This document shows, one piece after another, positions 22,210 to 24,420 of a DNA stretch of 64,000 nucleotides. The position numbers and the translations under genes are program-made. This DNA is from Paucidesulfovibrio longus DSM 6739 (GTDB taxonomy: Bacteria; Desulfobacterota; Desulfovibrionia; Desulfovibrionales; Desulfovibrionaceae): assembly GCF_000420485.1 (NCBI RefSeq), contig NZ_ATVA01000011.1, positions 124,001 to 188,000 of the forward strand, in the 5' to 3' direction. Below the pieces are notes generated by a model that made no database searches, was not told the origin of the DNA, and saw only the letters and a program-made list of their open reading frames with translations. Positions within the stretch are counted from its first letter, which is position 1. The number at the start of each line of letters is the position of its first letter.

Positions 22210-22784
22210 GACGTCCTCCTGCTAAGTGGGATGCGGCGCGGCGGGCACGCCGTGGACCTTGTGTTTAACCGGGCGGAGGGCGGGTTGGCAAGGGAAAGCC
22301 GGACCCCGCGCCTTGCGGAGAGTCGATCGATTTGCCGCAGGCGGGCCGCCGGGCGAGCGCAGCGGCGAATAATCGTCGCCATGTCCGGCTCGACGCGGAA
22401 GAAACGGAAGCGATTCGACTTTGAGTCGTGCGGATGAACGGAGAAGGGCATTCAATCGAGCGTGGGAGGTTGTGCATCCATGCGCCGAGAAGATGATTCC
22501 GTGGTGGAAATCAGCTTGGAAATACGCCGTTCGCGGGTGCGGCGTCGCGCTGAATTGAAGGGAAATAGGTGACGGGGAAGCGGATTTCAGCGTGTTTCCA
22601 CCCGCGAAATCGATTTGAAATGACCCTCGAAGCGGGCATTGTGCACAATCTATGGGCAGGCGATGTGGTTGATAATGTCCTGCTTCGGGCGTCCTGCGGC
22701 CTGGTCAGCGACGGACTCGACGCGCATGCTGCGAATCGACCGATTTCGCGGAATTTGTCTGCGGAACCCGTTTGCGGTCCGCGC
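22210..22784. other. Gene-free stretch between icd and the trp leader
   Basis: About 575 bases with no supportable gene. It must hold the icd promoter on the minus strand, but no convincing hexamer pair was found. Open frames on either strand lack ribosome binding sites; the plus-strand frame from 22569 only matters because its last 18 codons are the trp leader peptide. Confidence 0.5.
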
Positions 22785-22813
22785 TTGACAAGCATCACGG
22801 GCGCGGATAAAAA
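22785..22813 (+). promoter_or_regulatory. Candidate trp leader promoter
   Basis: A perfect TTGACA is followed after 17 bases by TAAAAA (16 bases to ATAAAA). Transcription would start within a few bases of the leader-peptide ATG, so the leader may be translated from a leaderless or nearly leaderless transcript. Confidence 0.5.
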
Positions 22814-22820
22814 ATCAGGC

Positions 22821-22874
22821 ATGAAAAAGATCACCTGCAACTGTTTTTGGTGGTGCTGGCGGCATAGCAAGTGA
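22821..22874 (+). CDS. trpL: Trp-rich attenuator leader peptide
   Basis: A 17-residue peptide, MKKITCNCFWWCWRHSK, with three tryptophan codons at positions 10, 11 and 13, too short for routine gene finding. Three tryptophans in four residues, upstream of a hairpin with a T run and a tryptophan synthase gene, is the hallmark of ribosome-mediated transcription attenuation. The stop codon lies in the segment that can pair with the terminator. Function is inferred from this layout. Confidence 0.85.
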   Translation: MKKITCNCFWWCWRHSK

Positions 22875-22937
22875 GCCGTCGGCGAGGTGATGTATTGATT
22901 TGAATGCCGCGGGCTCAAAGGCCCGCGGTTTTTTCTT
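22872..22937 (+). promoter_or_regulatory. Transcription attenuator (antiterminator and terminator)
   Basis: The terminator is an eight-base perfect stem, CCGCGGGC (22907-22914) with GCCCGCGG (22921-22928), followed by six T. The competing antiterminator pairs TGAGCCGTCGGC (22872-22883), which begins at the leader stop codon, with GCCGCGGGCTCA (22906-22917): six pairs, a 2x2 internal loop, then four pairs. A ribosome stalled at the Trp codons (22848-22859) leaves 22872-22883 free and lets the antiterminator form; one reaching the stop codon covers it and the terminator forms. Confidence 0.82.
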
Positions 22938-22963
22938 TCCCCCTTCGAGGGGGGTGGCGAAAA

Positions 22964-22994
22964 GGGCTGCGGGACCAGGGACCGCAGCCCTTTT
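22964..22994 (+). terminator. Second hairpin between attenuator and trpB2
   Basis: A perfect nine-base stem (GGGCTGCGG with CCGCAGCCC, nine-base loop) followed by TTTT, ending 13 bases before the trpB2 ribosome binding site. A smaller CCCC(T)TTCGAGGGG hairpin precedes it. It may act as a backup terminator or stabilise the 5' end of the mRNA. Confidence 0.65.
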
Positions 22995-23017
22995 CGTCAA
23001 CCCCAAGGAGGAATGTC

Positions 23018-24361
23018 ATGGAAGAGAGGATCATCCTGCCCGCAGCCGAAATGCCGGATAAATGGTACAACCCCTTGCCCGACCTGCCCACTCCGCTCGC
23101 TCCGCCGCTCGATCCGCAGACCCGGCAGCCCATTTCGCCGGAACAGCTCGGCGTGATCTTCCCGAACGCGCTCATCGAGCAGGAGATGAGCGCGGAATCC
23201 TGGATCGCCATTCCCCAGCCCGTCATGGACGTCTATCGCCTCTGGCGGCCCACGCCGCTGGTGCGGGCGCGCAATCTGGAAAAAGCCATCGGCGCGAAAT
23301 GCAAGATATATTACAAGGACGAGTCCGTTTCCCCGGCGGGGTCGCACAAGCCGAACACCTCGGTTCCCCAGGCGTACTACAACAAGATGGAAGGCGTGCG
23401 GCGGCTCTCCACGGAGACGGGCGCGGGACAGTGGGGCACGGCCCTTTCCTTTGCTTGCAGCCAGTTCGGCATGGATTGCACCGTGTACATGGTCAAGGTC
23501 AGCTACGAGATGAAGCCGTATCGGCAGATCCTGATCCGCAACTACGGCGCGACCATTCACCCGTCGCCGTCCCCGGCCACGCGCACCGGCGCGGCCATGC
23601 TGGAAAAGGATCCGGGCTGCAAGGGCAGCCTCGGCCTGGCCATTTCCGAGGCGGTCGAGGACGCGGCCACGCATGACGACACCAAATACACCCTGGGCAG
23701 CGTGCTCAACCACGTGCTCATCCACCAGACCATCGTGGGCCTGGAAACGCAGAAGCAGCTCGCCGCCATCGGCGTCAAGCCGGACTACCTCGTGGGCTGC
23801 GTGGGCGGCGGATCCAACTTTGCCGGGCTGGTCCTGCCGTTCCTCAAGAACAAGCTCGCCGGTGAAAAGATCAAGTTCGTGGCCTCCGAACCCAAGGCCT
23901 GCCCCACGCTCACGCGCGGGCAGTATCGCTACGATTACGGCGACATGGCCCGCCTGACCCCGCTGATGAAGATGCACACTCTGGGGCATTCCTTCATGCC
24001 CGCGCCCATCCATGCGGGAGGGCTGCGCTATCACGGCGACGCGCCGATTCTTTGCAATCTCATGGAGGAGGGGCTCATCGACGCGCGCGCCTACTTCCAG
24101 ACCGAATGCTTCGACGCGGCGCAGCTTTTCCTGCGCACGCAGGGCTTTTTGCCCGCGCCGGAAACCTCCCACGCCATCAAGGCGGCCATCGAGGTGGCCA
24201 AGGAGGCCGGTCCGGACGAAACCGTGGTCTTCCTCTATTCCGGCCACGGCATGCTGGATCTGGCATCCTACGACGCCTATCTGCAGGGCAAGCTGACCAA
24301 TTTCGAGCTGCCGCAGGAGGATATCGACAGCGCGCTCAAGGACTGCCCCGATATTCCCTAG
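23018..24361 (+). CDS. trpB: Tryptophan synthase beta chain, TrpB2 type
   Basis: A 447-residue PLP enzyme of the TrpB2 (TIGR01415) branch, longer at the N-terminus than the common TrpB1. It makes tryptophan from indole and serine. The PLP lysine is in SHKPNTS, the phosphate-binding loop is CVGGGSNFAG, and family features YYKDESVSPAGS and ETGAGQWG are present. It lacks trpA next to it, as is frequent for TrpB2, which often works on free indole. AAGGAGGA lies five bases before the ATG. Its own attenuator with Trp codons shows that it is regulated by tryptophan supply. Confidence 0.95.
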   Translation: MEERIILPAAEMPDKWYNPLPDLPTPLAPPLDPQTRQPISPEQLGVIFPNALIEQEMSAESWIAIPQPVMDVYRLWRPTPLVRARNLEKAIGAKCKIYYKDESVSPAGSHKPNTSVPQAYYNKMEGVRRLSTETGAGQWGTALSFACSQFGMDCTVYMVKVSYEMKPYRQILIRNYGATIHPSPSPATRTGAAMLEKDPGCKGSLGLAISEAVEDAATHDDTKYTLGSVLNHVLIHQTIVGLETQKQLAAIGVKPDYLVGCVGGGSNFAGLVLPFLKNKLAGEKIKFVASEPKACPTLTRGQYRYDYGDMARLTPLMKMHTLGHSFMPAPIHAGGLRYHGDAPILCNLMEEGLIDARAYFQTECFDAAQLFLRTQGFLPAPETSHAIKAAIEVAKEAGPDETVVFLYSGHGMLDLASYDAYLQGKLTNFELPQEDIDSALKDCPDIP

Positions 24362-24390
24362 TGACAAAGGGATGATCGTCTTGACTTTGG

Positions 24391-24420
24391 GGCGGCCTGC
24401 GCGAGCGGGCCGCCTTTTTC
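24391..24420 (+). terminator. Terminator after trpB2
   Basis: GGCGGCC pairs with GGCCGCC around a ten-base loop and is followed by TTTTTC, 30 bases after the trpB2 stop. Confidence 0.82.

Follow-up and report, generated by a model that had tools for sequence, protein, structure and literature searches.

A probable ribosome-mediated tryptophan attenuator ahead of a solitary trpB2 gene in Paucidesulfovibrio longus and other Desulfovibrionales

In the trp attenuator of Escherichia coli and related bacteria, Trp codons lie in a short open reading frame (ORF), the RNA can form the helices 1:2, 2:3 and 3:4, and the stop codon adjoins region 2. The locus described here, upstream of trpB2 in Paucidesulfovibrio longus, likewise combines Trp codons in a short ORF, three helices and a stop codon next to region 2. 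However, its target is a solitary trpB2 instead of trpEDCBA, the genome gives no match to TrpR, the leader ORF lacks a strong Shine-Dalgarno sequence and is probably leaderless, and the Rfam Trp leader family RF00513 does not match it. In S. meliloti the trpL RNA begins at the ATG, and attenuation operates without transcriptional repression (PMC7298713). A Trp attenuator whose RNA starts at the leader ATG is also what we predict for P. longus, where the start is placed from promoter spacing only; the target is trpB2 and not trpE(G), and the lineage differs. Trp attenuators have further been predicted in actinobacteria, including C. diphtheriae trpB2A (PMC1262725). There, too, the attenuator is predicted for a tryptophan synthase gene that is separate from the remaining trp operon, but trpA follows the so-called trpB2 of C. 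diphtheriae, whereas the TrpB2-family gene described here stands alone. Genes termed TrpB2_o lie outside operons in genomes with an operon-borne trpB1, and the excerpted account discusses another function for them and identifies none (PMC1854888). The P. longus gene has this arrangement, lying outside an operon in a genome with trpB1 in its trp operon; unlike in our case, Trp regulation goes unmentioned for the TrpB2_o genes in that excerpt (PMC1854888). Among the matches listed by a search of the open-access literature, outside of which most subscription papers fall, none described attenuation in Desulfovibrio or upstream of a trpB2 that stands alone.

The window, by which we mean the whole analysed stretch of 64,000 nucleotides, contains the following features at the trpB2 locus:

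22785..22813, plus strand, promoter (-35 TTGACA at 22785-22790, 17 nt spacer, -10 TAAAAA at 22808-22813)
22821..22874, plus strand, leader ORF MKKITCNCFWWCWRHSK* (ATG at 22821, TGA at 22872-22874, 17 codons), with a Trp cluster also found in relatives
22855..22863, plus strand, region 1 (GCTGGCGGC), partner of region 2, which a ribosome stalling on a Trp codon would cover
22872..22883, plus strand, region 2, of which 22875-22883 pairs with region 1 and 22872-22883 with region 3 (antiterminator)
22906..22934, plus strand, regions 3 and 4, intrinsic terminator (stem 22906-22929, 10 bp, then U5)
22956..22998, plus strand, a further hairpin of very high stability, located after the attenuator and before trpB2
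23005..23011, plus strand, Shine-Dalgarno sequence AAGGAGG of trpB2, strong pairing
23018..24361, plus strand, trpB2, TrpB-like PLP enzyme of 447 aa
24389..24419, plus strand, terminator-like hairpin 3' of trpB2 (-25.3 kcal/mol, z -4.54)

The trpB2 product is a member of the TrpB2 family, since it scores above the curated cut-offs of two NCBIfam models, NF009057 (690.6 bits, cut-off 366) and TIGR01415 (628.9, cut-off 518.85). Alignment to solved TrpB2 chains shows that the GSHK and TETGAGQWG contexts are kept, which we take to have the catalytic roles attributed to them in TrpB2. Given its own promoter and a terminator-like hairpin behind the gene, trpB2 is likely a single-gene transcription unit; the strict consensus promoter scan of the window did not return the promoter at 22785..22813, and the consensus terminator scan did not flag the hairpin at 24389-24419. 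The earlier note had spoken of a lone trpB2, unaccompanied by trpA or any further trp gene. This is right for the transcription unit, with its own promoter and terminator, and for the window, but not for the genome, because the same contig carries an aro-trp operon whose trpB1 and trpA lie ~70-72 kb upstream of trpB2. In this operon, ADH synthase, DHQ synthase II, aroA, a trpG-type amidotransferase and trpB1 (TIGR00263, 569, cut-off 392.45) exceed their cut-offs and trpA is also present; the best match to trpE stays below its cut-off (453 vs 517.7), and trpD, trpC and trpF are assumed from the intervening frames.

The Trp-rich peptide of 17 residues that the earlier note placed ahead of trpB2 is encoded by the leader ORF, a short frame with clustered Trp codons at 22848-22850, 22851-22853 and 22857-22859, as expected of a ribosome-mediated Trp attenuator. 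Three mutually exclusive helices lie downstream of this ORF or overlap it. Helix 1:2 joins 22855-22863 to 22875-22883, and the antiterminator 2:3 joins 22872-22883 to 22906-22917, at the positions that had been proposed; helix 3:4 is the terminator hairpin that had been recognized behind the peptide. The RNA from 22815 to 22935 folds with a z of -2.93, and 3 of 200 shuffles were equally good. We folded the nascent RNA up to 22919 and represented the cover of the ribosome by a mask. With the leader masked to 22863 or 22869, corresponding to a ribosome at the Trp codons, all 10 pairs of the antiterminator form, whereas a mask to 22884, corresponding to a ribosome at the stop codon, leaves 0 antiterminator pairs, and the terminator follows as soon as region 4 has been transcribed. 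In this masked folding, which takes up the check suggested in the earlier note, the cover of a stalled ribosome fits the attenuator model. If no mask is applied, region 1 of the RNA ending at 22919 is bound by region 3, and neither 1:2 nor 2:3 is present; in the complete leader, again unmasked, helix 1:2 has 9 pairs and helix 3:4 has 10. Thus, pairing and masked folding give an antiterminator and a terminator that exclude each other, with stalling freeing the former, but equilibrium favors the terminator: masking region 1 of the complete leader does not change this preference, and antitermination would therefore have to be kinetic. The second hairpin is found throughout the genus (3/3 genomes), and where a C-G pair has become T-A, both sides have changed; the hairpin is followed by T4 here and by T5-T6 in the two other members.

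We put the probability at nearly nine in ten that this arrangement is a ribosome-mediated transcription attenuator through which a single-gene trpB2 unit answers to charged tRNA-Trp. RNA polymerase would start at or next to the leader ATG and, judging from promoter spacing, a 70S ribosome would probably load on the leaderless 5' end. When Trp-tRNA is ample, the ribosome would get to the stop codon at 22872 and cover region 2, and the terminator 22906-22929 would form. When Trp-tRNA is scarce, it would stall at one of the three Trp codons and cover region 1, so that region 2 stays free; 22872-22883 could then pair with 22906-22917 before region 4 is made, and trpB2 would be transcribed.

New here is the spacing between TTGAC and the leader ATG, implying that the leader ORF is leaderless. 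The element TTGAC lies 34-40 nt 5' of the ATG in 40 of the 41 leaders that we recognize ahead of trpB2 in the order (16/16 resembling that of the window, called window-type, and 24/25 of a second type). Among 1000 ATGs in the window, 6 show such a spacing, and among 108 trpB2 starts none does. In 39/41 leaders, the 3' end of the best -10-like hexamer is 4 to 10 nt 5' of the ATG, and from this promoter spacing a transcription start is predicted at the ATG or a few nt from it. Strong Shine-Dalgarno pairing is found for 9/41 leader ORFs, in contrast to 40/41 of the trpB2 starts behind them. Because the remaining 32 leader ATGs lack it, translation of the leader would depend on leaderless initiation, and both the spacing to the promoter and the missing Shine-Dalgarno pairing point to a probably leaderless ORF. 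The genomes of genus g29 are instructive for the loss of such a leader. Promoter, ATG and leader are intact in 7 of 13, while the other six keep TTGACA and have ATC at the position of the ATG, and no terminator was found when it was sought in these six. One of them (L063) retains Trp codons. The six form one group in the TrpB2 tree (support 0.995), and the leader may therefore have been lost in a single event.

How widespread the arrangement is can be seen from 108 trpB2 upstream regions of the order. A strict pattern was defined that requires an ATG-started ORF 8-45 codons long, W.{0,3}W towards the end of this ORF and a strong terminator no more than 70 nt away. It occurs in 9 of the 108 regions, compared to 0 of 4320 dinucleotide shuffles, and in 0 of 2000 shuffles of the window's own trpB2 upstream region. 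By inspection, Trp leaders are present in 41 of the 108 regions, 16 of window type with 2 to 4 Trp codons each and 25 of the second type, and an intact one is absent from 67. A loose search for ORFs with a Trp pair flags 29/108, namely the 16 window-type leaders, 2 other ORFs in g5 and 11 that were rejected. In L015, L076 and L111 the flagged ORF ends just before the TTGAC of the promoter; in L018, L026, L048, L053, L068 and L106 the layout of leader and terminator was not seen; L044 has no usable upstream region, though it is counted in the 108; and L063, with N runs and its ATG lost, was counted as a relic. L066 and L109 belong to the same genome.

Fourteen of the 16 window-type leaders, which come from the genus of P. 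longus, from g28 and g29 and, in one case, from a genome outside the family, were brought into one alignment (A1); L005 and L023 were omitted as their layout differs. A1 was built so that its first column is the first Trp codon. Counted from there, the second codon is Trp in 12/14 leaders and so is the fourth, and in 14 of the 16 window-type leaders the stop codon ends 27 nt past the start of the first Trp codon. Paired cells amount to 96.0% for 1:2 and 3:4 and to 89.3% for 2:3, while slid controls reach at most 58.4% and 55.0%, and 1:2 and 2:3 each come to -13 kcal/mol or better in 14/14. In a swap test, the partners of one species pair more strongly with each other than with those of other species, with 131 (1:2) and 142 (2:3) of 20000 permutations as good. 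Compared to letter-shuffled partners, 1:2 stands out in 12 of the 14 leaders and 2:3 in 6. Column covariation does not rise above shuffles for 1:2 and 3:4, and for 2:3 it consists of two compensatory cells. The Trp cluster, the spacing of the stop codon and the three helices recur in four genera, with a geometry that fits the cover of a stalled ribosome, and the attenuation mechanism proposed in the earlier note is well supported; Trp codons and pairing, whose lack of conservation it had named as a refutation, do recur in relatives.

At gathering score no Rfam family was found in the window, in the aro-trp region of P. longus or in 19 related loci, and at a lax threshold matches came only far below gathering scores, with RF00513 absent at E up to 5. 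A covariance model of our own (R1), run against 288 genomes of the family, gave 13 strong matches (62.6-103.5 bits), all of them training sequences. The 17 weaker matches listed (L125-L141; 31.6-37 bits) mix Trp leaders with plain terminators; L129, a plain terminator at the end of a coding frame, was rejected as a leader. Two Trp leaders among them, GSWWRG in L125 (g19) and ASWWWRDNNT in L132 (g8), stand before genes whose best match is trpE, below cut-off. In L140 (g8) the Trp leader PVAWWCSLA precedes a sodium/solute-symporter-like gene, a candidate for Trp uptake whose best family scores are below cut-offs. L133 and L141 (g8) and L136 (g21) are other R1 matches. The P. longus genome contains one strong site (75.6 bits) and the next one scores 23.1 bits; a weak match at 22.8 bits led to a Phe leader.

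The second leader type was found in 25/25 loci of g5, which corresponds to Pseudodesulfovibrio as the named records L151, L153 and L154 bear a leader of this type. It has ~23 codons of the form M.TPISY..FCGRGWRNVKRPDS, with several variable positions and one Trp codon. Its last codons pair with the 5' arm of the terminator and the bases before that arm, and the antiterminator arm therefore lies inside the ORF. None of 20000 permutations with swapped partners was as good, and the pairing is clearly better than with letter-shuffled partners in 13/25 loci. At the codon preceding the final Ser, D, E, Q, R, K and L are all found, and in most loci the bases that it pairs with change along. We also considered that the single-Trp leader is an arrest peptide and rejected this, because the conservation is better accounted for by the KRPDS codons pairing with the arm of the terminator. 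In L093 and other g5 loci, CAGTTTGAGA before the terminator seems complementary to TCTCAAAACTG just 5' of the trpB2 Shine-Dalgarno sequence, a match seen by eye that hints at a possible long-range contact.

In a TrpB2 tree that leaves aside the partial L044, L057 and L111, all 41 leader-bearing genes fall into one clade (support 0.854), which also includes leaderless members of the gene family, among them L010, L017, L022, L024 and L025, where no Trp leader precedes trpB2. L005, whose leader ends in HWRGWRHIR, joins g5 with support 1.0, and g5 minus L005 has a support of only 0.128. The simplest reading of the tree would be one origin of the trpB2 leaders and several losses. A further set of 80 trpB2 loci, mostly outside the order and partly repeating earlier loci, contains a separate Trp-rich leader before trpB2 in L176, a KSB1 metagenome-assembled genome (MAG), where CCAATAGTGGGC is an exact 12-base complement of the 5' arm of the terminator. 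L204, a WOR-3 MAG, has a Trp-rich ORF before trpB2 without a clear terminator, and ORFs were flagged also in L178, L186, L194 and L216.

Several other readings have to be weighed against attenuation by charged tRNA-Trp. The short ORF shares its frame with a longer one that starts at a GTG (22569-22874), and the loose search flags Trp-pair ORFs in 11 more of the 108 regions that were rejected as leaders, so one might suspect a Trp-rich ORF that stands by chance before an ordinary terminator and regulates nothing. We regard this as hardly credible, as none of the 4320 shuffles reproduced the strict pattern and the Trp cluster, its spacing and the pairing recur across genera. That the leader reads a signal other than Trp-tRNA, such as Cys supply or a general slowing of translation, is very unlikely, even with three Cys codons in the leader of the window and at least one in 9 of the 16 window-type leaders, since the other seven, including all three of g28, have none. 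The presence of Trp codons is not by itself independent evidence here, because the leaders were picked by them; the fixed distance from Trp codon to stop and the fixed helices are. A terminated RNA of this locus would begin with ATG, as does rnTrpL of S. meliloti (PMC7298713), and the short RNA or its peptide might act mainly in trans like the trpL products. This too we consider unlikely, because the N-termini of the window-type peptides differ widely among genera, and what comes back is the clustering of Trp codons, their distance to the stop and the arms of the helices.

A larger doubt concerns the enzyme and leaves the attenuator as it is. Control by Trp codons means that the cell needs the product during Trp shortage, and salvage of indole by TrpB2 under these conditions is a plausible role that fits this regulation. 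An indole source in the genome would support salvage, though not define it; the tryptophanase model TIGR02617 found no match in the P. longus genome, and the broad family PF01212 gave two marginal ones (27.5 and 27.0 bits, cut-off 27). For this reason, the enzyme would have to draw on external indole or on indole that escapes from TrpA/TrpB1. With trpA and trpB1 at hand and tryptophanase unmatched, TrpB2 could instead be an auxiliary beta chain working with TrpA, use another serine donor or catalyze another reaction required under Trp shortage. Serine deaminase activity was once proposed for TrpB2 and was found to be poor in two TrpB2_o proteins (PMC1854888). We see such a role as a possible but less probable alternative, as the Trp-codon control and the kept GSHK and TETGAGQWG contexts speak against it.

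TyrR and TrpR control aromatic amino acid supply in E. coli. In P. longus, the aro-trp operon is preceded by a leader of its own, MNSLRDLGVFASFYFWYWFSRVCGHGRGTA (FYFWYWF; L058:5102-5194, contig C11), and a terminator-like hairpin. Counting relatives, an aromatic leader is present in 25 of the 27 loci with DHQ synthase next (including L222-L251), and all 25 have TTGAC 35 to 40 nt before one of their ATGs. A second ADH synthase gene of P. longus (L271, contig C15, 448-1245) has a predicted Phe leader, MNTRIRNAFFFSFFFFRCACGLGVSL, while the third has no aromatic leader. Upstream regions of ADH synthase genes chosen from relatives (20, L273-L292) contain 11 with an aromatic leader and TTGAC at -36 to -38; Phe-rich, Tyr-rich and mixed leaders occur among them, some with nearly all Phe (L273, L274, L277) and some with Tyr (L283, L286). 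We lean, with somewhat more confidence than doubt, towards the view that Desulfovibrionales regulate aromatic supply by leaderless attenuators of one promoter-plus-leader design, with codons set per target, that is Trp for trpB2, Phe/Tyr/Trp for aro-trp and Phe or Tyr for ADH synthase isozymes. Through translation, these would fulfill the task that TyrR and TrpR have in E. coli, and trpB2 would be the Trp-only arm.

The role of orphan TrpB2 has long been puzzling, with serine deaminase, a second Trp synthase and indole rescue as the candidates. A leader that reads Trp indicates what the cell uses the orphan enzyme for, namely Trp when Trp is short, and the question can now be tested in culturable relatives such as Pseudodesulfovibrio. 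The findings also point to order-wide leaderless aromatic attenuators, outside the groups in which such control is best studied. If the coded leaderless set is real, it marks orphan TrpB2 as an enzyme of Trp starvation. In this sulfate-reducing host, the trpB2 leader appears to serve a spare tryptophan-synthase gene that is switched on only at low Trp.
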